Positions 2,505-54,805 of a stretch of DNA of 64,000 nucleotides are shown in pieces. The DNA comes from Azospirillum thermophilum (lineage in GTDB: Bacteria > Pseudomonadota > Alphaproteobacteria > Azospirillales > Azospirillaceae), in the NCBI RefSeq assembly GCF_003130795.1, contig NZ_CP029352.1, forward strand, positions 722,001 through 786,000. The letters run 5' to 3'. The number at the start of each line of letters is the position of its first letter. Position 1 is the stretch's first letter. The notes under the pieces are model-generated. The model was not told where the DNA came from. It saw only the letters and a program-made list of their open reading frames with translations, and ran no database searches. Made by a program: the position numbers and the translations under genes.

Positions 2505-3380
2505 TCAGGCCGAGGACGTGGCGTCCATCTGTTCCGTCTGCGCGCCGGAGCCCTGGCGGGCGGCTCCCAGCACGGGCGCGGCACCCAGCGGCTCCGCCTG
2601 CTTGGCGGAGAACTGGCCCTTGCCGTCGAGCGACGGACCCTGGGTGAAGCGGCCTTCCGGCGGCGGTTCGCCGTTGCGGTCGGTGCCGGCAAAGACGTAG
2701 CTGAACTCCCGGTTTTCCAGGGACTGGTCGAAGCTGTTGGGGATCGGCAACTGCGCGGCCGGGCCGCCCAGTTCCTCGATCACCGCCAGCCACTGCTGCT
2801 GGTGCATGGTGTCGCGGGCGATCAGGAAGCTCAGCATGTCCTTCATGCCGGGGTCGTGGGCGGCGTTGTAGAGGCGCACCGCCAGCGTCCGGCCGGTCGC
2901 CTCCGCCGTGATGTTGGCGAACATGTCGGCGGCGAGGTTGCCGCTGGCATAGACGTGCGAGCAGTCGAAGGGCGCGCCGTCGGCATTGCCGGGGAACGCG
3001 GCCAGCCCGGTGGAAAGCAGGTGCTTGTGCAGCATTCCTTCCACCATGTGGCGGGGCCGCTCGCCGCCCATCACCGCGTTGACCACCGGGTTGGCGGCCG
3101 CCGTGCTCTCCTGCAGCGACAGCGGAGCGTTCTCCAGGTTCAGGGCGACCGCGGTCGCCAGCATCTCGATATGGCCGATCTCCTCGGTGGCGGTGTGGAG
3201 CAGCATGTCGCGGTACTTGGTGTTCGGGCTGCGGTTGCCCCAGGCCTGGAAGAAATACTGAAGGCAGACGCGAAGCTCGCCCTCGACCCCGCCGATCGCC
3301 TGCTGTAGCTGGCGGGCGAACAGCGGGTCGGGTGTCTCGACCTTCACCGGATACTGTAGCCGCTTGTCGTGAAAATACAT
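2505..3380 (-). CDS. Manganese catalase family protein
   Basis: A 291-aa protein that opens with the family signature MYFHDKRLQYPVKVETPDPL and carries the ferritin-like four-helix metal-ligand motifs: E in GGVEGEL, EEIGHIE around residues 66-72 and a later E/H pair (MHQQQWL). Manganese catalases dismutate hydrogen peroxide with a non-haem dimanganese centre. The C-terminal about 60 residues are rich in Gly/Pro/Asp, as in other members. It is monocistronic, convergent with the response regulator upstream and separated from rpoZ by 133 bp. A role in peroxide or stationary-phase stress is known for the family; regulation is not visible. Confidence 0.92.
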   Translation of the reverse strand: MYFHDKRLQYPVKVETPDPLFARQLQQAIGGVEGELRVCLQYFFQAWGNRSPNTKYRDMLLHTATEEIGHIEMLATAVALNLENAPLSLQESTAAANPVVNAVMGGERPRHMVEGMLHKHLLSTGLAAFPGNADGAPFDCSHVYASGNLAADMFANITAEATGRTLAVRLYNAAHDPGMKDMLSFLIARDTMHQQQWLAVIEELGGPAAQLPIPNSFDQSLENREFSYVFAGTDRNGEPPPEGRFTQGPSLDGKGQFSAKQAEPLGAAPVLGAARQGSGAQTEQMDATSSA

Positions 3381-41959: not shown

Positions 41960-42003
41960 GGTTCTTTGATAAAGTGAATTAAGTCAGTGTCTTATAGGGC
42001 AGA
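41960..42003 (+). promoter_or_regulatory. Leader-proximal motif of CRISPR array 2
   Basis: GGTTCTTTGAT-AAAGTGAAT-TAAGTCAGTGT, the counterpart of the array 1 motif at the same 44-bp distance from repeat 1. It sits between cas2 and the array, the usual leader position. Confidence 0.8.
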
Positions 42004-43067
42004 GGTTCCCCCGCAGACGCGGGGATAGACCCGAGGTGAAGCGATGACGATGACAGCCGTCGATGGTTCCCCGCAGACGCGGGGATAGACCCTGACGCCG
42101 CCCACGCAGGGCAGGCAGCCTGACGGTTCCCCCGCAGACGCGGGGATAGACCCGCCGCCGCCATTGTCTGCAAAGCCGATGCAGAGGTTCCCCCGCAGAC
42201 GCGGGGATAGACCCCCGATCGTGCGCACGATCAGCGATCCGGACGCGGTTCCCCCGCAGACGCGGGGATAGACCCATCGTTGATGGGGTGCGGCTGGACC
42301 ATCGGTCGGTTCCCCCGCAGACGCGGGGATAGACCCAGCCGGATGGTTGGGAACACCGCCAAGGACTTGGTTCCCCCGCAGACGCGGGGATAGACCCCGC
42401 ACCATGAGCGTGCCGTGCGGGTAGGGTGCGGTTCCCCCGCAGACGCGGGGATAGACCCTTTACCGTCGGTTTCTGGCGCGAGTCGGTCCCGGTTCCCCCG
42501 CAGACGCGGGGATAGACCCCTTCTATGGCATCTACGACGCGCCGGATCGGGGGTTCCCCCGCAGACGCGGGGATAGACCCAGCCGCGCGCTGGTGGAGCA
42601 CTGGCTCCAACGGGTTCCCCCGCAGACGCGGGGATAGACCCTGGATGGCCGTCGCTCCAGTATCCGTCACGGAGGTTCCCCCGCAGACGCGGGGATAGAC
42701 CCGACCAGCACGTCTCGGTGCTCGGCATCTACGAGGTTCCCCCGCAGACGCGGGGATAGACCCCCGCGCGCCGTCATCGGCGGGAACATGCCGCCGGTTC
42801 CCCCGCAGACGCGGGGATAGACCCAAGACAACCTTCCCGAGTCCGTTGGTTGACTGGGTTCCCCCGCAGACGCGGGGATAGACCCCGCAAGAGCACGCCC
42901 GAGGAGCTGGCGGCCCTGGTTCCCCGCAGACGCGGGGATAGACCCTCCGGGGCGTTTGTCCGCACCGGTACGGGGAAGGTTCCCCCGCAGACGCGGGATA
43001 GACCCTGACTTGGTACGACTTCGACAGCGTTGTTTTCGGTTTCCCTGCAGGTGCGGGGGGAAGAGGC
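42004..43067 (+). CRISPR. Type I-E CRISPR array 2
   Basis: Seventeen repeats from 42004 to 43005 with 32-bp spacers, then a degenerate eighteenth (43038-43067). The repeat starts GGTTCC, has stem CCCCGC-AGAC-GCGGGG and ends ATAGACCC. Three repeats are 28 bp because one C (42065, 42918) or one G (42978) is missing. Orientation is plus, leader at the cas2 side. 43068-43244 between the array and the IS66 end shows only a short unassigned coding-like fragment. Confidence 0.97.
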
Positions 43068-43325
43068 GAACGAGGCAATCGCCCAGCGGGCCGAGGACGA
43101 GGCGTTCGCCGCGCTGGATGCGGCTCTGGCAACGCCGCCGGGTGAAGTTGGGGGTGTCGGGAGTGCGTGCGCTGCTGGCGTTCGTCATCGACGAGGCCGA
43201 GGGTGACCCGGACCTCAGCCGGAACGGACTGGCTGCGCTGAAGCGTAAGCGGTGTTCTGGCGTCACCTTCCAACGGAAGCAGGGCGGAGCGAAGCTCCCG
43301 GATCGCATGATCGGGAGAACGATTT

Positions 43326-43730
43326 GTGTCTGCGCTCGACCTTACGCTTGACCAGGAGCCCGTGCGGGTGCGCCGGATGGAGGTGATCACCGGCGATGTG
43401 GGCCGCCGGACCTGGTCGCCGGAGGAGAAGGAACGGATTCTGGCCGAGGCCGCGGTGCCGGGGGCTGTTGTTTCCGAGGTGGCTCGGCGTCACGGATTGC
43501 GGCCCCAGCAAGTGTTCGGCTGGCGCCGGGAAGCGCGTGCCGCCAACCGCTTCCAGGAAGAGGGCTTGGTGTTCGCGCCGGTGGTGCTGGACACCACGCC
43601 GCCCCCAGCCGTGCCGAAGGAGCTCCCGGCCATTGAGGTGCGGATCGGCGATGCGGTGGTGCGCGTGCCGGCCGGCATGGACAGCGCCACCGTCAAGGCG
43701 GTGCTGGGCGCGGTGAGGGCGTCACGGTGA
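43326..43730 (+). CDS. tnpA: IS66 accessory protein TnpA (OrfA)
   Basis: A 134-aa protein. The HTH region RRTWSPEEKERILAEAAVPG and VARRHGLRPQQVFGWRREAR are typical of the IS66 first ORF, followed by a tail with IEVRIGDAVVRVPAG. It overlaps tnpB by 4 bp. Required with TnpB for transposition in studied IS66 elements. Confidence 0.9.
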   Translation: MSALDLTLDQEPVRVRRMEVITGDVGRRTWSPEEKERILAEAAVPGAVVSEVARRHGLRPQQVFGWRREARAANRFQEEGLVFAPVVLDTTPPPAVPKELPAIEVRIGDAVVRVPAGMDSATVKAVLGAVRASR

Positions 43731-44080
43731 TCGGCATCGAGGGCGCGGTGCGAGTTCTGGTCGCCGCCAAGCCGGTCGACTTCCGCAAGGGCATGGATGG
43801 GCTGGCCGCCCTGGTGCAGCAGCAACTGGGGGCGGATCCCTTCAGCGGGGTCGTTTACGTCTTCCGCTCCAAGCGAGCCGATCGGGTGAAACTCCTGCAC
43901 TGGGATGGCACCGGACTGGTTCTCATCGCGAAGAGATTGGAGGCCGGCCAGTTCCGCTGGCCAGCGATCCGCGACGGCGTGATCCGGCTGACCCCGGCTC
44001 AGCTCTCGGCGCTCGTCGAGGGCCTGGACTGGACCCGGGTCCGCGCCGTGCGGGGGCCTCGGCCGACGTCCGCCGGCTGA
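43727..44080 (+). CDS. tnpB: IS66 accessory protein TnpB (OrfB)
   Basis: A 117-aa protein with the family pattern VRVLVAAKPVDFRKGMDGLA, VYVFRSKRADRVKLLHWDGT and GQFRWPAI. Role in transposition is required but mechanistically unclear. This is the IS66 TnpB, unrelated to the RNA-guided TnpB of IS200/IS605. Starts at ATG overlapping the tnpA stop. Confidence 0.92.
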   Translation: MIGIEGAVRVLVAAKPVDFRKGMDGLAALVQQQLGADPFSGVVYVFRSKRADRVKLLHWDGTGLVLIAKRLEAGQFRWPAIRDGVIRLTPAQLSALVEGLDWTRVRAVRGPRPTSAG

Positions 44081-44150
44081 TCTGCGACACAGCGACTCGC
44101 CCGCGGCTTCGAGGGCGAAGACCGCAGGCGGTGCGGCTATACTGGCGGAC

Positions 44151-45746
44151 GTGACGACCGCGCCCGAAACCCTGCCCAGCGATCCTGAAGAGTTGCGTGC
44201 CCTGCTGCTGGCCGAACGGGTCCGGCATGCCGCGGAGCTGACGGCGGCCCGCTCCTCGGCCGAAGAGGAGATCGCCCGGCTACGCCAGATCATCCGGGAG
44301 CTGCAGCGCCATCGCTTCGGCCGGCGGGCCGAGCGCCTTGATCCGGACCAGCTGGCCTTGGCGCTGGAGGACCTGGAGCAGACGCTGGCCGCCAAGGAGG
44401 CCGAGCCCGCCGGTTCCGCTGCGGCCAAGCCGGCCCCCTCGGCCCCCGGCGCCGGGTCAATCGCGGCAACCTGCCAGCCGATCTGCCGCGCGAGGAGATC
44501 CTCATCGATGTCGCCGACAAGACCTGCCGATGCTGCGGCGGCGCGCTGCATCCCATCGGCGAGGATGTCTCGCAGCGTCTCGACCTCGTCCCGGCCCGCT
44601 TCCGGGTGCTGGTGACCCGCCGCCCGAAATACGCCTGCCGCCAGTGCGAGGAGGGCGTCGTGCAGGCCCCGGCGCCGGCGCGCATCGTGGACGCCGGCAT
44701 CCCCACCGAAGCGCTGATCGCCCACGTTCTGGTGTCCAAGTTTGCCGATCACCTGCCGCTCTACCGCCAAGCCCAGATCTACGCGCGCCAGGGTGTCGAT
44801 CTCGACCGCTCCACCCTGGCCGACTGGGTCGGGCGGGCGGCGTGGTACCTGCGGCCCCTGCATGAGCGGTTGCTCGCCAACCTGAAGGCGTCGGGCAAGC
44901 TGTTCGCCGAGCCCGCAGGGCCAGCGAAGCTACGAGACGACGGCGCCGGTGCTCGACCCCGGACGGGGCGGCACGAAGACCGGCCAGCTCTGGGCCTATG
45001 CGCGCGACGATCGCCCCTGGAACGGACCGGAGCCGCCGGCGGTGGCCTACGTCTATGCTCCCGATCGCAAGGCGGAACGGCCAGTGACGCACCTGCAGGG
45101 GTTCACCGGCGTGCTCCAGGTCGACGGCTACGCCGGCTATCGCAAGCTGGCCGAGGGCGGAGCCGTGCGCCTCGCGTTCTGCTGGGCGCATGTCCGCCGG
45201 GGCTTCTATGATCTCCAGACCGGCGGCTCGGCGCCGATCGCCAGCGAAGCCTTGCGGCGCATCGCCCAGCTGTACGCGGTGGAGGCGGAGATCCGAGGCC
45301 GTGCCCCCGAGGCGCGCCGCCGGGAGCGCCAGGCCCGCTCGACGCCGCTGATTGCGGAACTGAGGGCGTGGCTGGAAAAGCAGCTGGCGACGGTGTCGCG
45401 CAAATCGACATTGGCCGAGGCGATCCGCTACGCGCTCAGCCGCTGGGAGGGGCTGACGCTGTTCCTCGACGACGGCCGGGTGGAGATCGACAGCAACAGC
45501 GTGGAGCGCAGCATCCGCCCGCTGGCCCTCACGCGAAAGAATGCCCTGTTTGCCGGCAGCGACGGCGGCGGCGAGCACTGGGCGACCATCGCGTCGCTGG
45601 TGGAAACCTGCAAGCTCAGTAGCGTCAATCCGCAGACCTGGTTCGCCGATGTCCTGACCAAACTCGCCGGCGGACATCCGATCACTAGGCTCGATGAACT
45701 GCTGCCCTGGGCCTATGCCCGGCAGGCCGAAACCGCCGTGGCCTGA
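44151..45746 (+). pseudogene. tnpC: IS66 transposase TnpC of element A, two frame breaks
   Basis: DDE-type transposase in three frames. The N-terminal part (44151 on) has the leucine-rich coiled coil and RHRFGRRAERLDPDQL. The first break is one missing C in the run at 44443-44447. The second is a 22-nt insertion at 44911-44932, inside the codon for the predicted first catalytic Asp; removing it gives LFADETTAPVLDPGRGGTKT. The C-terminal part has QVDGYAGYRKLAEGG, CWAHVRRGFYDL and the conserved SNSVERSIRPLALTRKNALF. The zinc-ribbon-like CRCCGG is also present. It ends 13 bp before the right inverted repeat. Confidence 0.9.
44911..44932 (+). repeat. 22-nt double mini-hairpin insertion in tnpC (element A)
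   Basis: Two adjacent 11-mers: GCCCGCAGGGC (stem GCCC, loop GCA) then CAGCGAAGCTA (stem AGC, loop GAA; contains GCGAAGC). Precise removal restores the DDE codon and the reading frame. The same insertion, with one substitution, is in element B at 47827-47848. Confidence 0.85.
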
Positions 45747-45759
45747 AAACACCGCTTAC

Positions 45760-46474
45760 GATAGGCCGGCGGCTGCCAGAGGATCTTGCAGGCGGAGAGG
45801 TTGCGCTGGACGACCGGAAGCGACAGGCCGGCGGATCGCGCCCACAGGAAGACCTGGCGGGCGCTGCCCAGTTCGCGGAACTTGCGGAACAGCATCCGGA
45901 TGGCGTCGGCGACGCGCTCGTCCGGATCGATCTCGATCCGCCCGGCCTCACTCCAGCAGTAGCCGGGCGGCAGCGTGAACCGCAGCTCGCCTCTTCGAGC
46001 CTTGCCGTCGCGGGCTTCGATGCCGCGCTGGCGCAACAGGCTGAGCTCGTACTCCGACATCGTTCCCTTCAGTCCGAGCAGCAAGCGATCGTTCAACAGC
46101 CGTGGATCATAGACCCCGTCCGGATCGATCACCAACGTCCCAGCCAGGGCACAGAGGTCGATGAGGTGGTGCCAATCCCGGCCGTTTCGGGCCAAGCGCG
46201 ACGCCTCGATGCAATAGACCGCGCCGACCGTGCCGGCGCAGACGGCCGCCGCCAGCTTCTGGAACCCCGGCCGTGCCTCCAGCCCGGACCCGGAGCGGCC
46301 GAGGTCCTCGTCGATGATCGCCACGTCGACGAAGCCGGCCGTGCGCGCCGCGTCGGCCAGCGCATATTGCCGGCGGCGGCTCTCGGCGTGGCCGGTCACC
46401 TGGCCGGGAGTGGATTGGCGGACATAGATCGCGGCCCCGCGGCCGAGGTGATCAGCGGTGATCTTGAGGCTCAT
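45760..46474 (-). pseudogene. Serine recombinase, 3' end removed by IS66
   Basis: About 238 codons remain of a large serine recombinase. The resolvase domain has IYVRQSTPGQ (nucleophile Ser21), AIIDEDLGRSGSG and CIEASRLARNGRDW; the recombinase domain begins with RRGELRFTLPPGYCW and breaks off after SACKILWQPPAYR at the IS66 end. Such enzymes move elements between att sites. It is preceded by two overlapping small genes in the same direction, a common arrangement for this group. It is not functional as it stands. Confidence 0.88.
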
Positions 46475-46631
46475 GGCCGCCCTCCTCGTGCTCCGCGCCT
46501 GGCCGGGCGCCCGCGGCTTCCAGGAGCAGGTCCGCCAGCGCCCACACCGCTTCGTCCGGGATCACGACGTTCAGGGGTGGGGCGTTGAGATCCAGCGACA
46601 GCTGGTTCATCGGCCGCGGTCGTCTGATCAT
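46452..46631 (-). CDS. Small protein upstream of the serine recombinase
   Basis: Not recognised by family. 59 aa (MIRRPRPMNQLSLDLNAPPL then NVVIPDEAVWALADLLLEAA). GAGGAGG lies 7 bp before the ATG, a strong ribosome site. It overlaps the recombinase start by 23 bp, so it is translationally linked to it. The hydrophobic-helical part suggests a folded peptide rather than a chance frame. Confidence 0.6.
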   Translation of the reverse strand: MIRRPRPMNQLSLDLNAPPLNVVIPDEAVWALADLLLEAAGARPGAEHEEGGHEPQDHR

Positions 46632-46965
46632 CGGCAACCTCCTCGGTGGGTGGGATGTCCGATGGTGCGTGATCGCCGGCTCGGCTCCGCAAATCCGAGA
46701 GAACTGCCGCCAATGCCCCAAGGGCGACGGTGCCGACCTGCGGCGGTCCCAACGCGTCCATCCCCAGGCAGGAGGCCGCGTCGCACATCCAGGCCGGCAG
46801 TTCGCGGGCGTTTCCTGGGCGCTCCTCCAGCCAGATCACCGGATGACCGCTGCGGACGGTTCGGCTCACCACCCGGAGCGTCTGCCCGTACAGCGGGTGC
46901 CACGGGTATTCGACCCGCGCCGACTCGAATCTGTATGCCGAATGATGCTCGGTCTTGGACTGGCG
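46471..46965 (-). CDS. DUF5372-like protein, start uncertain
   Basis: Reads YPWHPLYGQTLRV, VSRTVRSGHPVIWLEERPGN and ELPAWMCDAASCLGMDALGP, a pattern of small proteins (DUF5372-like) found ahead of recombinases in mobile elements. The frame is open from 46965, but no ATG/GTG/TTG precedes WHPLYG; the first start in frame is GTG at 46872, which would remove the conserved beginning. It may be 5'-truncated by the IS66 element B junction. It overlaps the two downstream genes. Function unknown. Confidence 0.5.
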   Translation of the reverse strand, partial: RQSKTEHHSAYRFESARVEYPWHPLYGQTLRVVSRTVRSGHPVIWLEERPGNARELPAWMCDAASCLGMDALGPPQVGTVALGALAAVLSDLRSRAGDHAPSDIPPTEEVADDQTTAADEPAVAGSQRPTPERRDPGRSGVGAGGPAPGSRGRPARRGARGGRP

Positions 46966-47826
46966 TCACACCGTGCCGGTGTCGCGGCCGACCGCAGCGG
47001 GATGAATGGCAGAAAAAGTGAGGAAAACCGCGGGCTTGGCTGGCCTGGACCCATGATCCGCGATACAATCGGCCATGCGCTTCGACCTCGACAACCTGCC
47101 CACTGATCCAGCCCTGCTGCAGCAGATGGTGCGCGATTTGGCCGAGGTCGTGGAGCGCCAGAAAGCCGATCTGGCGGAGTTGGAGGCTCTGCGTCAGCAG
47201 CTCCGGCAGATGCAGCGCACCGTCTTCGGGCGCCGCTCCGAACGGCTCGATCCCGATCAGCTCGATCTCGGGTTGGAGGAGCTGGAGGCGGACATCGCCC
47301 GGGTCGAGGCCAAACTCGCAGCCCCTGAACTGGAACCGTTGGCCCCTGCGGAACCACCCAGCCGTGGCCGCGACTTGCCCGATGATCTGCCACATCACGA
47401 TCTCACGCTCGAGCCGCCCGGGCTGGAGTCCGGCGCTGGTGTTTGCCCCTGCTGCGGCGGGGCTTTGCATGAGGCCAGCGAGACGGTGGCCCGGATGATC
47501 GACTACGTGCCGGCCCAGGTGCGGGTGCTGCGCATCCGCCGGCCCAAATACGCCTGCCGCGGCTGCGGCACGCTGCATCAGGCGCCGGCCCCGGAGAAAC
47601 CGATCGCTAGGGGGATGGCGACGCCGGCGATGCTGGCGCACGTCATCACCAGCCGCTACTGCGATCATCTGCCCTTCTACCGCCAGGCGCAGATCCTGGC
47701 CCGCAACGGCTTTCCTGTTGACCGCTCGGTTCTGGCGGGCTGGGCGGGACAGGCGTGTTGGTGGCTGGAGGCGCTGCATGAGGAGTTGGCCAAGGCCCTG
47801 TTCGCCTCGGCCAAGCTGTTCGCCGA

Positions 47827-47848
47827 GCCCGAAGGGCCAGCGAAGCTA
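47827..47848 (+). repeat. 22-nt double mini-hairpin insertion in tnpC (element B)
   Basis: GCCCGAAGGGC (stem GCCC, loop GAA) then CAGCGAAGCTA (stem AGC, loop GAA). 21 of 22 bases match the insertion in element A and the position in the gene is the same codon (GA|C, first predicted catalytic Asp). Confidence 0.88.
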
Positions 47849-48432
47849 CGACACGCCGATGCCGACGCTGGCGCCGGGAACCGGCCGGGTGAAGACCGGA
47901 CGGCTGTGGGCCTATGCCCGCGATGACCGGCCCTGGCAGGGGCTGGACCCGCCGGCGGTGATTTACGCCTACACCAGCGATCGCAAAGGCGAACGCCCAG
48001 CCGCCCACCTGCGGGAGTTCTGCGGGGTGCTGCAGGTGGACGGTTACGCCGGGTTCGAACGGCTGGCTGCCGGCAATCGGGTCGTGCTGGCGGCCTGCTG
48101 GAGCCATGCGCGTCGACGTTTCTACGACCTGGCCGAAAACGGTTCGCCGATCGCCGCCGAGGCACTTCGCCGCATTGCCCGGCTTTACGCGATTGAAGAG
48201 CGAATCCGTGGCCGCACGGCCGATGAGCGCCGGCAGCTTCGACAAGCCGAGGCAGCTTCCCAGGTGGCGGAACTGAAGGCGTGGCTGGAGCACGAACTTC
48301 CCCGCCTGCCGGGCCGCTCCAAGCTGGCCGAGGCGATCCGCTATGCGCTCGGCCGCTGGAAGGCGCTGTGCGTCTACCTGGATGACGGCCGTGATCTTGC
48401 CCCGGTTGGGTGGACACAGGTTCACGCAGATC

Positions 48433-49281
48433 TTAGCTCGGCCTGTTCGGGGTGATGTATCCGATGGCCGAGTGGGCGCGTTGGCGATTGTAGTAGGTTT
48501 CGATGTAGGCGAACACCTCCCGGCGCGCCTGGTCGCGGGTTTCGAACCGAGTACGATGGACCAACTCGACCTTGAGAGTGTGGAAGAAGCTCTCCATGGG
48601 AGCATTATCGTAGCAGCAGCCCTTGCGCGACATGGATTGCCGCATCCCGGCCGCCTGCAACAGGTCCCGGTAATCCCGGGAGGCATACTGACTGCCGCGA
48701 TCGGAATGCTGGATGAGGCCCACGGCTGGCCGTTGACGCTGGATGGCCATGACCAGGGCGGAGGTGGCGAGTTCGGCGCGCATATGGTCGCGCATCGCCC
48801 ATCCAACGATCTTCCGGGTCGCCAAGTCGAGGAGAGCCGCCAGATACAGCCAGCCTTCAGCGGTGGGCAGGTAGGTGATGTCGGCAAGCCAGACCCGGTT
48901 GGGCTCGGCTACCTGGAAGGCCTGGCCCAGCAGATCGGGAGCGACTGGCAGGCCATGGCGGCTGTCGGTCGTGACGGGCCGGAACCGGCGTGCGGCGGCA
49001 CCCCGGATGCCGTGCCGGCGCATCAGACGCGCCACCCGGCCCCGGCTGGCGGCGACGCCCTCCGCGCGGAGGGCTGCATGCACGCGCGGGCTGCCATAGC
49101 GGCCATGGTGGTGACCATGAACACGTCGGACCTCGACCAGAAGCTGTCGGTTGGCGGCGGCCCGCTGGCTTTCCGGCCGCCCACGCCACGCGTAGTAACC
49201 GCTGGCGGACACCTCGAGCACCGAGCACATAAGCCGGGTCGGGAACTCGTCCCGGTGGTCCTCAATGAAGCGGAACCTCAT
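48433..49281 (-). CDS. IS3-family transposase OrfB (copy 1, altered C-terminus)
   Basis: A 282-aa integrase-type (rve) transposase: WLADITYLPTAEGWLYLAAL (first Asp), HSDRGSQYASRDYRDL (second Asp), DNAPMESFFHTLKVEL (Glu). Its last residues (YITPNRPS) differ from copy 2 (YITPEQAELRSA) because a run at 48449-48452 has four G instead of five. Normally expressed as an OrfAB fusion by -1 frameshifting at the A-rich site TTTAAAAAAG (minus strand of 49311-49320). Confidence 0.92.
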   Translation of the reverse strand: MRFRFIEDHRDEFPTRLMCSVLEVSASGYYAWRGRPESQRAAANRQLLVEVRRVHGHHHGRYGSPRVHAALRAEGVAASRGRVARLMRRHGIRGAAARRFRPVTTDSRHGLPVAPDLLGQAFQVAEPNRVWLADITYLPTAEGWLYLAALLDLATRKIVGWAMRDHMRAELATSALVMAIQRQRPAVGLIQHSDRGSQYASRDYRDLLQAAGMRQSMSRKGCCYDNAPMESFFHTLKVELVHRTRFETRDQARREVFAYIETYYNRQRAHSAIGYITPNRPS

Positions 49282-49601
49282 CTCAGTGTTTCCGAGAAGA
49301 TGCTGATGGCCTTTTTTAAAATGTCGCGTTCCTGCCGGACGCGCTCCAGCTCGCGTCGCAGCCTCGCGATCTCCGCCGTCTGCTCATCCGGCTTGGCCGG
49401 CATGGCCGTGTCGGATACGGCAGGGGAACCAGACCGTGGGCGCGGCGGGTGGCCTTGGGCTACCCGCCGCCAGTTCCGCAGCACCGAGGCCTGCAGGCCC
49501 AACTCCCGCGCCACATGCTCCAGGGGCCGACCGCTCGCTTCCAGCAGGGCAACAGCCTCACGCTTGAACTCGTCCGTGAAGGATCGCCTCGTCTTCGTCA
49601 T
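49278..49601 (-). CDS. IS3-family OrfA (copy 1)
   Basis: A 107-aa HTH protein (TRRSFTDEFKREAVALLEAS; LGLQASVLRNWRRVA) with a leucine-zipper-like C-terminus (IARLRRELERVRQERDIL) for dimerisation. It ends 1-4 bp into the orfB start; the slippery A run sits near its 3' end. Identical in copy 2. Confidence 0.93.
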   Translation of the reverse strand: MTKTRRSFTDEFKREAVALLEASGRPLEHVARELGLQASVLRNWRRVAQGHPPRPRSGSPAVSDTAMPAKPDEQTAEIARLRRELERVRQERDILKKAISIFSETLR

Positions 49602-50099
49602 CAGACACCTTCCCGCTCCACTCGGAGCTTAGCTGAGATGTCCACCGAACCGAGGCAAGATCACCGGGTGGAGATGGATACCAACACGGTGGAGCGCTGC
49701 ATCAGACCGGTAGCCATCGGCCGGAAGAATAGCCTCTTCGCCGGCTCGGAGGGCGGTGGCCATCGCTGGGCGGTGATCGCCTCGCTGGTTGAGACCTGCA
49801 AGCTCAACGGCGTCGAGCCGTTCGCCTATCTGCGCGACGTCCTGGAGCGCATGGTGAACGGCTACTCCGCCGCACGCCTTGCCGATCTGCTCCCCTGGAA
49901 CTGGAAGCCCGCCGTCAACGCCTGATCCGGTGCGATCACGCTCCGCTTACGATGCATCCTTCTCGGCCAGTCAGCACGGATTTCCCTCTTGCGCCCGAGG
50001 GGCCGTCCACACATGGTTTCTTCGACGGTCAACGCTGTTCACCGGTATTTGGTGAAAGGGCCGTCCACCACATCACCTCACCTCACGGGTTGGGGCACG

Positions 50100-53000
50100 T
50101 CAGCCGAACCAGCGGCTGACGTCGCCGGTCCGGCCGAGGATGGTGACGCTGGAGCCGGGGCGCAGGTCCAGGATGGTGCTGCCACCCGACACCCGGGCCG
50201 ACGCGATCACCGTGGCGAGCCCGATCGACGGGTCCGACAGCGCCAGCCGGTCGACGCCCGGCACGAAGTCGGCCACCGCCACGGTGCCGGAGGCGGCGCC
50301 GAAAACGAAGAGGTCCGCTCCCTCGCCACCCCAGCCGATGTCGTTTCCCTGGTCGAGGAACAGCAGGTCGTCGCCATCCCCCCGACCAGAATGTCGGCCC
50401 CGGCTCCGCCAAAGATCGTGTCGTTGCCGGTGCCGCCGAACAGCGTGTCGTCGCCCTCGCCGCCGTCCAGCGCGTCGGCCCCGGAGCCGCCGTCGGCCAC
50501 GTCGTTGCCGCCGCCGAGCACCAGAAGGTCGCTGCCCGACCCGCCGAAGACCGTGTCGCTGCCGGCGCCGCCGAACAGCGTGTCGTCGCCCTCGCCGCCG
50601 TCCAGCGCGTCGGCCCCGAGCCCGCCGTCGGCCACGTCGTTGCCGCTGCCGAGCACCAGGATGTCGTCGCCCGCCCCGCCGAAGACGGTGTCGTCGCCCT
50701 CCTCGGCGAACAGCACGTCGTTGTCCTCGTTTCCGTCGGCCAGGTCGTTGCCGCCGCCGAGGGCGATGAGGTCGTTGCCGGTCCCGCCCGACACGGCGTC
50801 CGCGCCGGCACCGCCGGACAGCCGGTCCTCGCCGGAGCCGCCGAACAGGGTGTCCTCGCCCTCGCCGCCGTCGATGACGTCGTTCCCCGAACCGCCATCC
50901 AGCATGTCCAGGCCGCCGCCGCCGAAGACGGTGTCGTTGCCGGCGCCCATCCCGACCCTCTGCGCGGCATCGTCGCCGTAGAGCCGGTTGTCGCCCGCCC
51001 CGCCGGTGACGATGGCCGGCCCCATGACGAAGGCGAAGTCGATCTCGTCCAACTGCAGCACCGTCCCGACCGGCAGCCCGCCGGCGTCGATCAGCAGCGC
51101 CTCCGCAGCGCCGGTGCCGCGGAGCGCGACGGGGGCCGTCGCGCTGCCCTGCGGGGCGGTCGGCACGATGGAGCGCACGGTGAGACCGCTCGGCCCGGCC
51201 GGCGAGGCGAAGGCGGCGGCGATGGCCGCGGCCAGCCCGCTCCCGCCGCCGCTCGCGGCGACGCGTTCCTGCAGCACTCCCGCCAGGACCGCGGCCGCCT
51301 GCGCCGGGGTCTGCGGCGCCTCCGGCCCGGTCGCCGTCAGGGACAGCCCCGCCGGCAGCGCCGCGGCCAGCAGCGGCGTCGTGCCGTCCGACGCGGTCCC
51401 GCCGGTCAGGGACAGCGGCACCGGCGCCGTGCCGCCGGGGGGAACCGCAACGCTGAGCGTCTGCCGGCCGGCGGCGTCGGTCGTCATCTCGACCGCCGCC
51501 TGCGGGCCGTTGCCGTCCCCCACCGCCAGGAAGCGGGAGACCACGTCCGTCGCCGCCGAGGTGGTGCCGCTGGACGGATCGACCGCCACCAGCAGGAAGT
51601 CGTTGTAGCCGCCGGAGGCCAGCGGCACGGACAGGCTGAAGGCGGTCTCCCCCGCAGCCAGCGTGACGGATCCCGCCAGGGCCTCGCCGCTGTCCAGCCG
51701 GCCGTTGTTGTCGGCGTCACGGTAGACCTCCACCCGCGATCCGGCGGCGGCGCTGCCGGTCAGCCGGACGGCCGTGGCGTCATAGGTGACAGCGCCCAGC
51801 GCCGGGGCGGGCATGCCGACGACGAGGCGCGCCGTCGATGGGGCGGAGTTCAGGCTGCCCACCGCCGCGTCCACCAGAACATAGGTGACGGTCGCGGTGC
51901 CGAGATGGCCGGCGGCCGGCGTGAAGCGCAGGTCGGCGCCGCCGGCCGCCAGGGGCAGCACCGTCCCGGCCGGCCCCAGCAGGATGGCGGACCCGTCGGC
52001 CGCGGCGAGCGTGCCGCCGCTCACCGCCAGGATGCGCATGCCGGCGGGCGGCACGCCGTCCGGATCGCTCAGCACGGCCGGCGCGATGCGCAGGTTGGCG
52101 GCGGCCGGCCGGCTGTCGCGGATGACCGCGGCGGCCCCGCCGTCCGGGGCGGTCGCCGCCACGTCGCCGCCCGCCGCCGGCAGGGCGGCGACCGGCAGGG
52201 TCAGGGTGCCGCTGCGGTCCGGCAGGGCGGGATCGGCGAAGTCGGCCTCCAGCCGGATGGTCGCCACGGTGGCGCCGGGGACGGGCGTCATCGTCAGGGT
52301 CGCCAGGACCCGGCCGACCGCGCTAGCGGCCCCGCCCAGCGCCATCGCGCCGTTGCCGAGGTCGGTGACCTGCACCCCGGCGACGGCGGACAGGGCCAGG
52401 ACGGCGCCGGCCGGCGTCAGCCGCACCGTCACCTGCCCGTCGTCCGGGTTCTCCAGCCGCAGGCCGGACAGTGCGGCCGTCTGCCCGACGATCAGCGCGT
52501 CCAGCCGCGGCAGGGTCAGGGAGGTGCCGTTCAGCAGGGCGAAGCTGGCGCTCGCGGTGGCCGGAACGGTGCGGGCGTCGCCATCCTCCACCCGGGCCGT
52601 CAGGGTGGCGGTTCCGGCCGTGCCCGCGGTGAAGCCGAGGGTGGCGAGGGTGGCGTTGATCGCGGCGGCCGGCCCGCCGATGGTCAGGCCGCCGGCCCCG
52701 TCGGCGGTCACCGCCGCCCCGGCCGCCGCCGCGGCCGACAGGGTGCCGCCGGTGACGCCCAGCCGCAGGGTCAGGCTGTCCCCGTCGGCGTCCGCCACGC
52801 TCAATCCCGGCAGGAGCGCCGTCGTGCCGGCCAGCATGTTGGGCAGCGCCGGCAGGGTCACGGTCGGGGAATTCAGCAGCGTCAGCGCGATGCTGCCGCC
52901 GGCGTCCGGCGTCGCGGGATCGCCGTCGGAGACGGTGACGCCGATCGAGGCGGCGGTCCGCCCGGCCGTCCCGGTGAAGCCCAGCGTCGCCAGCGAGGCG

Positions 53001-54805
53001 TTGACCTGCGCCACGCTGCCGCTCACCGTCGTGACGCCGGCCAGGGTGGCGACGGTGGCCGGTCCGCCCACGGTCAGGCTGCCGTTGAGCGGCGTCAGGG
53101 TCACGGTGACGGCCGCGCTGTCCCCGTCGGCGACGGACAGGCCGGGGATCGCGGTCGGGCTGCCGGCCAGCAGGGTCAGGGAGGCCGGCGCGCTCAGCCG
53201 CGGATCGACCGGGTCCTCGTTGCGGATGGTGCCGGTGGCGGAGGCGGTGGCGATGACGGCGCCGCCCGGGTTGGACAGGGTGACGGTGAAGCCTTCGTCG
53301 CTCTCCACGGCCGTGTCGCCGGCGACCTGGACGGTGATGGTCTTGCTGGTCTCTCCCGGCGCGAAGCTGACCGTGCCGGAGGGCAGAACGCCACCGGTGA
53401 AGTCCGCGGCGTCGGCCGCGCTCGGACCGCTTCCGGTCACCGCATAGGCGACCGAGGAACTGCCGGTGGTGTCGCCGGAGCGGGTGACGGTGAAGGTGAA
53501 GGCAGTCGGTCCGTTGTCGCCTTCCGCCTTGGAGGCATCGGCGGCGGCGATGGTCAGGACGGCGGTCGCTCGGGTGTCCGACAGCAGGACCGGCGGCGCC
53601 GTCCCGAAGCGGGCGAACTCGACGCCGGTCAGCGTGGTGGTTCCGCTGCTGCCAACCACCCGGACGGTACCGTCCGCTTCCACTGTGACGGTGTAGGCCG
53701 AGCGCTCGCCATCGAAGACCGCAATGTCGGTGCCGGCGCCACCCTGCAGAACGTCGTTGCCCGGCCCGCCGACCAGGCTGTCGTCGCCGTCGCCGCCGTC
53801 CAGCGTGTCGTCGCCGTCCTCGCCGTACAGCGTGTCGTTGCCCTCGTCGCCATAGAGCTGGTCCTTGCCGGTCCAGCCGTACAGCACATCGTCGCCGAGG
53901 TTGCCGTGGAGCAGGTCGTCGCCGCCCTGCCCGAACAGGGCATCGTTGCCCTCCATGCCGTAGACCCGGTCGTCGCCGTCGAGCGCGAAGATGGTGTCCG
54001 CCCCGGCGAGCCCGACCAGAAGGTCGCTGTCCATGGTGGGGGCCAGATTGACGCCCAGTACCGAGAGATGGACCTGCGGGTCGCTGCCGAAGCGGACATA
54101 TTCGACGTCATGCAGGCTGTCGACGCCGTCGGGCTTGTAGACCAGATAGTCGGTCGGCCCCGGCCGGAGAATGAGATAGGAGGTCCAGGGGCCGGCATAA
54201 ACGACGACGTCGTCTCCGGCGCCGCCGTCCAGCGTGTCGTTGCCGCTGCCGCTGTCCAGCGTGTCATTGCCGTCACCGCCGAACAGCTGGTCGTGGTCGG
54301 CACCGCCCTGCAGCAGATCGTTGCCCGCGCCGCCATACAGCCAGTCGCGGCCGGCGTTGCCGGTCAGCGTGTCGTCCCCGCCGTTGCCGACGATCAGGTC
54401 GCTGGAGCTGTTGCCGGTCAGCGTATCGTTGACCGCCCCTCCGATCAGGCCTGGCGCATAATCAAGAGTCAGAAAATTGACGTTTTGATCAGAAAAATAG
54501 TACTTATCCGTTAGCAGATAGTACCAGTTGTCCAAAGCGGCAAGAGGATCGCTACCTCCCTCCTTGACCCTAAGCACCAATCCGCCATCATAGAAGCCAA
54601 AGTAGTAGGTCGTCGACCAGCCGCTGGGAGCATTCTGAAGCGACACCCTCTCGTCGTAGCGGAACACGCCGTCATCGGTGGTGCCAGCCCGCTCCAAGAT
54701 AGTGAAGCCGTTTTGCCGGGCTCCAGTTCTGTTTGGCGTGATTGTGGCGATGCCATTTCTATAATTTATATCGTAAACGTAAAGACCAGTAAAGGATGCA
54801 ACCAT
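50100..54805 (-). CDS. RTX/Calx-beta secreted calcium-binding protein (one frame break near 3' end)
   Basis: About 1568 aa when one base is restored. Order: short N-terminal region (1-110), RTX nonapeptide repeats GGxGxD (about 110-220 and 265-365), a Calx-beta domain (about 410-520), a long series of Ala/Val/Gly-rich cadherin-like modules (about 530-1300) and a second RTX block (about 1330-1500). The tail DFVPGVDRLALSDPSIGLAT with ILDLRPGSSV fits a type I secretion signal. A C run at 50378-50383 has six where seven are needed; otherwise the frame stops at 50207. It is probably exported by a type I system, which is not in the window. Role (adhesin or surface layer) is inference. Confidence 0.85.

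Follow-up and report, generated by a model that had tools for sequence, protein, structure and literature searches.

Two interrupted transposase genes

The window considered here, meaning the whole 64,000-nucleotide (nt) stretch of the Azospirillum thermophilum genome that was analysed (contig NZ_CP029352.1, positions 722,001 to 786,000), contains two different insertion sequences (IS) of the IS66 family, IS66-A and IS66-B, whose tnpC transposase genes carry the same short insert. Copy A of the insert lies at 44911-44932 on the forward strand (GCCCGCAGGGCCAGCGAAGCTA) and copy B at 47827-47848 on the same strand (GCCCGAAGGGCCAGCGAAGCTA). As an earlier note on this DNA had claimed, the two are identical at 21 of 22 positions. 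The comparisons described below suggest, with a probability of roughly 0.73, that this 22-mer belongs to a mobile micro-element of 22-23 nt, which is non-autonomous, is moved in trans and accumulates in transposase genes.

The tnpC gene of IS66-A (44151-45746, forward strand) is broken twice, at insert A and at a further frameshift near 44455. In IS66-B, insert B interrupts the 5' part of tnpC (47075-48396, forward strand), and the 3' remainder of the gene (49665-49925, forward strand, start approximate) follows past a nested IS3. Both target sites (44908-44935 for A and 47824-47851 for B, forward strand) read CGA/insert/CGA, with a one-base ambiguity in placement (GA|..CTA|C or G|A..CT|AC). 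The splitting of a GA|C codon in the first Asp motif of IS66 is borne out by profile matches to PF03050 (DDE_Tnp_IS66), which in both genes end at profile position 72 and restart at 74, so that the insert interrupts the codon for Asp in the A-D-[DE]-T motif, presumably a catalytic residue. Removal of the 22 nt rejoins the local reading frames in both genes. The stronger proposal that precise removal restores both frames is true only locally, since gene A keeps its second, upstream frameshift and the nested IS3 still disrupts the end of gene B.

Anatomy of the insert

The insert consists of two adjoining mini-hairpins, GCCC-G(N)NA-GGGC followed by a C, and AGC-GNA-GCT followed by an A, giving 22-23 nt. 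In copy A, hairpin 1 (GCCC GCA GGGC) spans 44911-44921, the C is at 44922, hairpin 2 (AGC GAA GCT) spans 44923-44931 and the final A is at 44932. The corresponding parts of copy B are at 47827-47837 (GCCC GAA GGGC), 47838, 47839-47847 and 47848. The sequence d(GCGAAGC) is an unusually stable DNA hairpin.

Among the 26 copies catalogued below, stem 1 is identical throughout and stem 2 in 25, while loop 1 fits the pattern G..A in 25. Loop 1 is GAA in 14 copies, GCA in 4, GCAA, GCGA and GTCA in 2 each, and AAA and GCCA in 1 each; loop 2 is either GAA (14) or GCA (12). When folded as DNA, both hairpins form for 11 of 12 variants, the exception being that of locus L247, with modest energies (-3.2 to -4.3). 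Inspection by eye and folding revealed no terminal inverted repeats: the ends GCCC.. and ..GCTA do not pair mutually, and each hairpin is internal. On the reverse strand, the junction reads GTAG, with the G contributed by the target, and then the two hairpins.

Distribution of copies

A search for the 22-mer across genomes, as proposed in the earlier note, recovered copies beyond the two window genes, which were tabulated by IS family and position. Of 27 full copies listed, one in an IS3-like orfA (L112, three mismatches) is doubtful and was excluded. Of the 26 that remain, Azospirillum lipoferum 4B has one, and the other 25 are spread over 12 of the 82 Azospirillaceae genomes. Carriers besides the window's own genome include Azospirillum sp. 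B510 (7 copies), TSH58 (2 copies), A. melinis, A. canadense, A. sp. SYSU D00513 (2 copies) and Nitrospirillum amazonense.

In the 82 family genomes, a 27-base pattern with up to three mismatches gave 20 matches in 9 genomes and none for its reversed control. A gapped pattern gave 33 matches versus 8 for the reversed control; 25 of these are the element, and the remaining 8, in which stem 2 is not kept and whose context is unread, were not counted. Copies with a four-base first loop were recovered by looser patterns. Within the window, a rough pattern (3 mismatches from copy B) gave 1 match with 0 expected by chance. Across the window's own genome, a 20-base pattern with up to three mismatches gave 29 matches, below the reversed control (48), and only the 3 matches with 0-1 mismatch are the element. 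The third copy is antisense within what we take, partly from similarity, to be an IS3 transposase beside an IS256 fragment. At C1:848722 of the same genome (L001, ~3212-3250), IS256-like and IS3 fragments are fused a few bases from the insert, as if the hairpin had promoted a deletion.

Outside the family, a class-wide sample of 385 genomes contained the element only in the window's own genome, together with one unrelated pattern match. A broad contig scan yielded 17 contigs, of which 6 have the GA..C context, all of them Azospirillaceae, and 10 lack it. A Rhodobacteraceae metagenome-assembled genome (L040) has the GA..C letters, but its joined frame is not open and the match was taken as chance. 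Plasmid searches returned the element in B510, TSH58 and 4B; among the weaker matches (E ~0.3-10), the one that was read, in Methylobacterium sp. DM1, lacks the hairpin. A phage search with one query and a search of IMG/VR with one exact pattern gave no match. Among the best 120 of 652 related proteins, one further IS66 (P0001, from a metagenome), read as protein only, has the same insert in the same codon.

An insert of merely 22 nt might raise the suspicion of an assembly, adapter or chance artefact. This explanation is close to negligible, given the empty reversed control of the 27-base pattern and the occurrence of copies in records that were deposited separately, namely those of B510, TSH58, 4B, A. 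melinis, A. canadense, SYSU D00513 and N. amazonense. The observation in the earlier note is real and more general than thought.

Host genes and target motif

All 26 catalogued copies are inside transposase genes, in both orientations, and represent 13 combinations of IS and position in five families (IS66, IS3, IS21, IS5 and ISKra4). Families were assigned with Pfam and NCBIfam models on representatives and by similarity to these for the other copies; NCBIfam scores were under the curated cut-offs because only fragments were supplied, and in the ISKra4 case L208 has no Pfam match, L247 being placed there by its likeness to L208. In IS66, the insert occupies the first Asp in three lineages (A, B and ISAzs20) and, antisense, a Trp-Trp site (L242). 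IS3 copies are found antisense at a V-G-W motif in two IS types and also at HHS-D and SY-D, the IS21 site is VY-D, IS5 is hit at P-D-H or its equivalent in three copies, and ISKra4 is represented by L208 and L247.

The target is approximately S-GA|C-V-A, with three exceptions among the 26 copies: L109 (TGA), L242 (CCA) and L245 (C-T-T). The suggestion that the element targets an active-site codon, as inteins do, is therefore only partly sustained. It agrees with the hits on the first Asp motif in three IS66 lineages and on the HHS-D and VY-D codons of IS3 and IS21, which we take to be catalytic, but not with the antisense non-Asp sites in IS3 and IS66 or with the Asp codons in IS5 and at SY-D of IS3, which are presumably non-catalytic. 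Since the motif is so short, hits on Asp codons largely follow from it, and the apparent targeting of active sites is mainly a short-motif effect. The motif also partly explains why the same position is used repeatedly: IS66-B and the tested IS3 each contain a single CGAC[CG]A, which is the site used, but IS66-A and ISAzs20 each contain four. The real puzzle is the restriction to transposase genes.

Such restriction could be expected if a cellular system deliberately placed the hairpin into transposase genes as a means of silencing IS. The presence of every copy in transposase genes of five IS families, with lengths that are never a multiple of three, would fit. Host-driven silencing is nevertheless highly improbable: tolerance of insertions in dispensable genes accounts for part of the bias, copies occur in only 12 of 82 genomes, and no such system was found in a search limited to PF01797 (Y1 transposase).

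Empty sites and repeated changes

Comparison of filled with empty alleles, also proposed in the earlier note, shows that insertion is precise. In 17 filled/empty pairs the difference is exactly the insert, and any duplication of the target is limited to 1 nt. Empty relatives are available for site A (L113, L157, L158 and L160) and site B (L150 and L151). Flank mismatches number 0/48 in three pairs (copy B against L150 and L151, and the IS3 L114 against L191) and 1-9/48 in the other 14, and flanks match their own lineage up to the junction.

In a protein tree of IS66 (29 rows), three lineages hold insert-bearing copies (A, B/G037 and ISAzs20), and close empty copies accompany each of them. Four forced changes were counted by the program on this tree, but the fourth depends on protein segments identical between the window's own B and empty copies, and three lineages are claimed. 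A tree built from B-type DNA (6 rows) leaves room for one event common to own B and G037, and their inserts may share such an origin. An IS3 tree (26 rows, five of them insert-bearing) requires three changes, at least two of them forced by supported branches. Repeated gains are the simplest account of these changes and are favoured over losses because empty copies are abundant. This arrangement does not support common ancestry of all IS66 inserts, and the overall distribution is not that of a simple ancestral lesion in a single decaying IS66 lineage. The idea of a tiny mobile element, one of several raised in the earlier note, is supported by the 13 IS/position combinations in five families, the exact empty sites and the repeated changes at one site.

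A further possibility is that one or a few original insertions were followed by homologous gene conversion, which carried the insert from one IS copy to another. Use of the same codon in three IS66 lineages, and the location of own A and B 3 kb apart, would suit such a process. However, the IS3, IS5, IS21 and ISKra4 sites share little with IS66 past about six bases, the loop variants of own A and B differ, and flanks resemble their own lineage right to the junction. Gene conversion is accordingly very improbable, if slightly less so than host-driven silencing.

The insert had also been considered as the scar of a lost intron, an idea set aside as no longer element with the same ends was seen. 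A left-half pattern in nine genomes returned, instead of a longer parent, known copies, a half copy in G023 and two more matches (G011 and G000, context unread). A right-half pattern (1 mismatch, 82 genomes) revealed no longer parent among all zero-mismatch and some one-mismatch matches; it matched in 60 genomes, and its reversed control in many too, so these matches are mostly chance. A 25-base pattern with 3 mismatches likewise gave chance matches in both hits and control. An Rfam search of positions 42000-50500 of the window gave no match, and the 22-23 nt element has no reading frame.

The half copy in G023 (A. melinis; L028/L114) belongs to an IS3 that carries the antisense insert and also, at HHS-D, a sense element of which just the first 13 nt are present. 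There the IS3 stops abruptly at unrelated DNA, an apparent deletion junction within the element. A different, second micro-insert of ~40-42 nt with a strong hairpin (GCGGTTCC..GGAACCGC) is present, about in frame, in the IS3 linker of four loci (L107, L189, L190 and L192).

ISAzs20 and the fate of interrupted transposases

An insert of 22 or 23 nt is not divisible by three and frameshifts each host gene, and the normal effect of insertion would be inactivation of the transposase. ISAzs20 speaks against simple inactivation: it is present in B510 in seven copies that all contain the insert and are identical over 629 bp around it. A near-identical intact ISAzs20 was not found in B510: the nearest is 79% and has Lys at the Glu of the C-terminal motif, while a close empty relative is found in another genome (L167). 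On the B510 chromosome, an IS66 tnpC at L103 is otherwise open, with its conserved C-terminal Glu replaced by Lys.

The multiplication of ISAzs20 invites the explanation that ribosomes skip the insert or shift frame there, or that the RNA is trimmed, leaving the transposase active. In addition to the seven copies, the three long copies read have an open tnpC frame once their flanks are joined, RefSeq lists a single coding sequence (CDS) of 1645 nt across the insert (a length of 3n+1, which implies an annotated frameshift), and own B is under strong constraint downstream of the insert. Against recoding, inserts of 22 and 23 nt require different net shifts, the inserts at V-G-W in IS3 and Trp-Trp in IS66 run antisense to the gene, and shifted read-through would replace the Asp of the first motif. 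By eye, the flanks have no common matched take-off and landing codons, GAG..GAG being found in copy A alone, and the G037 copies look relaxed. Recoding is thus quite unlikely, though the least so of the alternatives to a mobile micro-element, and translational bypass is unlikely as a general account, with inserts of two lengths in both orientations.

Several observations nonetheless weigh against a mobile element that inactivates its hosts. One ISAzs20 copy has an 8-bp target duplication, and another duplication is shared between two other copies; together with the seven insert-bearing copies, this indicates that the IS moved with the insert in place. Downstream of the insert, own B (up to the nested IS3) differs from the empty G045 by 0 non-synonymous and 23 synonymous changes, and from G026 by 1 and 22. 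The value of 0 versus 23 means either that insertion was very recent or that function persisted. Own B and G037 also share 6 codon states relative to two empty copies, and if their insert is of common origin, own B remained constrained afterwards. The site changes on the trees could partly be precise losses. Moreover, the later search patterns fixed the stems and the G and A of loop 2, which partly builds in stem conservation. The fairest test of that conservation is the 27-base scan, in which mismatches were permitted at any fixed position: with the doubtful L112 aside, all of them affected loop 2, the final base or the flank of the target, and the stems had none.

The restriction to IS genes likewise exceeds what simple tolerance predicts. 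In two B510 plasmid stretches, a small, IS-rich and incompletely annotated sample of which one was selected for its ISAzs20 copy, annotated transposases account for 52 of 590 [CG]GAC[ACG]A sites and other genes for 468, the remaining 70 being in DNA without annotation. If only transposase and unannotated sites tolerate insertion, the probability that 13 of 13 fall in transposases is, as a rough estimate, near 0.43^13, or ~2e-5. Finally, no master copy or mobilising enzyme was identified, and PF01797 is unmatched in 5 of the 12 carriers (G000, G013, G022, which is B510, G037 and G058).

For own B and ISAzs20, recent insertion plus mobilisation in trans is the favoured explanation, and insert-carrying IS copies such as ISAzs20 would most likely be moved by TnpC supplied in trans. 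In both G037 copies, 8 of 20 shared lineage-specific codons are non-synonymous, including Cys codons of the zinc-finger region, a sequence pattern that looks as expected after inactivation.

Mobilisation and significance

Recognition of a folded single strand is suggested by four features: insertion leaves no duplication, the element is oriented, its target is short and fixed, and its stems are conserved while its loops drift. The unit moved is probably this hairpin-folded strand, joined to its target by a trans-acting single-strand recombinase or via an RNA copy. Confinement to IS genes would then arise because dispensable transposases tolerate insertions and the element has some preference for its target, as is reported for the pneumococcal element RUP (see below). 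Other HUH enzymes or an RNA route like that suggested for Allomyces hairpin elements would be candidates. Mobilisation by the obvious candidate, a Y1 transposase of the IS200/IS605 or REP-associated tyrosine transposase (RAYT) type, was considered and rejected: PF01797 is over-represented among carriers (7/12 versus 15/70 non-carriers, Fisher p = 0.013), yet the main carriers have no match. The PF01797-negative genomes include B510, TSH58 and the window's own; the other seven match, two of them weakly.

A more specific and rather doubtful proposal is that a candidate enzyme inserts the double mini-hairpin preferentially into transposase genes, at sites recurring between IS lineages, and perhaps excises it precisely too. 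If true, the element would be either a mobile, site-specific parasite of mobile elements, the smallest of its kind, or a switch with which bacteria or rival elements reversibly turn IS off.

By appearance, the element ranks with the smallest pieces of mobile DNA, and it may act as a brake on jumping genes; 22-23 nt would be near the lower size limit for a precisely inserting DNA element. Machinery able to join so short a hairpin to a 6-base site would be new to biology and might serve as a tool. Annotation is also affected, as the interrupted ISAzs20 transposase is shown in RefSeq as one coding sequence. A literature search covering titles and abstract openings found no published description of this element, no mention of ISAzs20 in the papers searched, and no sign that the ISAzs20 interruption has been recognised as a repeated element.

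Other features of the window

Upstream of tnpC, IS66-A has two forward-strand open reading frames (ORFs), at 43326-43730 and 43727-44080, presumed from their position to be tnpA-like and tnpB-like. Directly upstream of IS66-A is a CRISPR-like array (41984-43390) with repeated GLSPRLRGN/SIPASAGEP readings. Between the two IS66 elements lies a serine-recombinase-like ORF (45713-46474, reverse strand); similar recombinase genes adjoin a truncated ISAzs20 in B510 (L144) and the IS66 of L103. The IS3-type element nested inside IS66-B tnpC spans ~48400-49665. A very long ORF (50207-54805, reverse strand) contains many GGXGXDXXX-like repeats, which we take to be of the RTX type.

Comparison with known systems

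Several known systems share some of these features. Inteins and homing introns differ in that the micro-element has no reading frame and its region of the window no Rfam match. Translationally bypassed short hairpin inserts are known within coding genes, as in T4 gene 60 and the byps of yeast mitochondria, whereas the micro-element lacks matched codons, has two out-of-frame lengths and includes antisense copies. Like miniature inverted-repeat transposable elements, it appears to be non-autonomous, but it has neither terminal inverted repeats nor a multi-base target duplication. Insertion without duplication at a fixed short target, with exact junctions, resembles that of single-stranded DNA elements of the IS200/IS605 type, whose end hairpins have guide sequences and are acted on by a Y1 enzyme.

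Mitochondrial hairpin elements are organellar and longer, whereas the micro-element is bacterial and found in transposase genes. Such repetitive hairpin-forming elements, double ones included, look mobile and in some cases lie inside genes, and for those of Allomyces an RNA route was suggested since duplications are lacking (PMC2800124). Repetitive extragenic palindromic (REP) and GTAG palindromes, mobilised by RAYTs, are similarly very short dispersed hairpin DNA, some of them (REP) located inside genes (PMC3733652). On its reverse strand the micro-element junction gives GTAG, but next to a pair of tiny hairpins instead of a single stem-loop. The micro-element also differs in its exact insertion into IS genes, its few copies and, in 5 of 12 carriers, the absence of a Y1 transposase match.

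RUP, the repeat unit of pneumococcus, is ~107 bp long with terminal repeats; the micro-element measures 22-23 nt, uses a GA|C target and is without terminal repeats or multi-base duplication. RUP is reported to be a small non-autonomous element that targets IS regions at TA-containing sites and inactivates transposases of more than six IS families (PMC2229807). Since the micro-element also accumulates in transposase genes of several IS families, RUP is its closest behavioural parallel. Its confinement to these genes would make it a second case beside RUP, structurally unrelated, of small elements that may cap IS activity.

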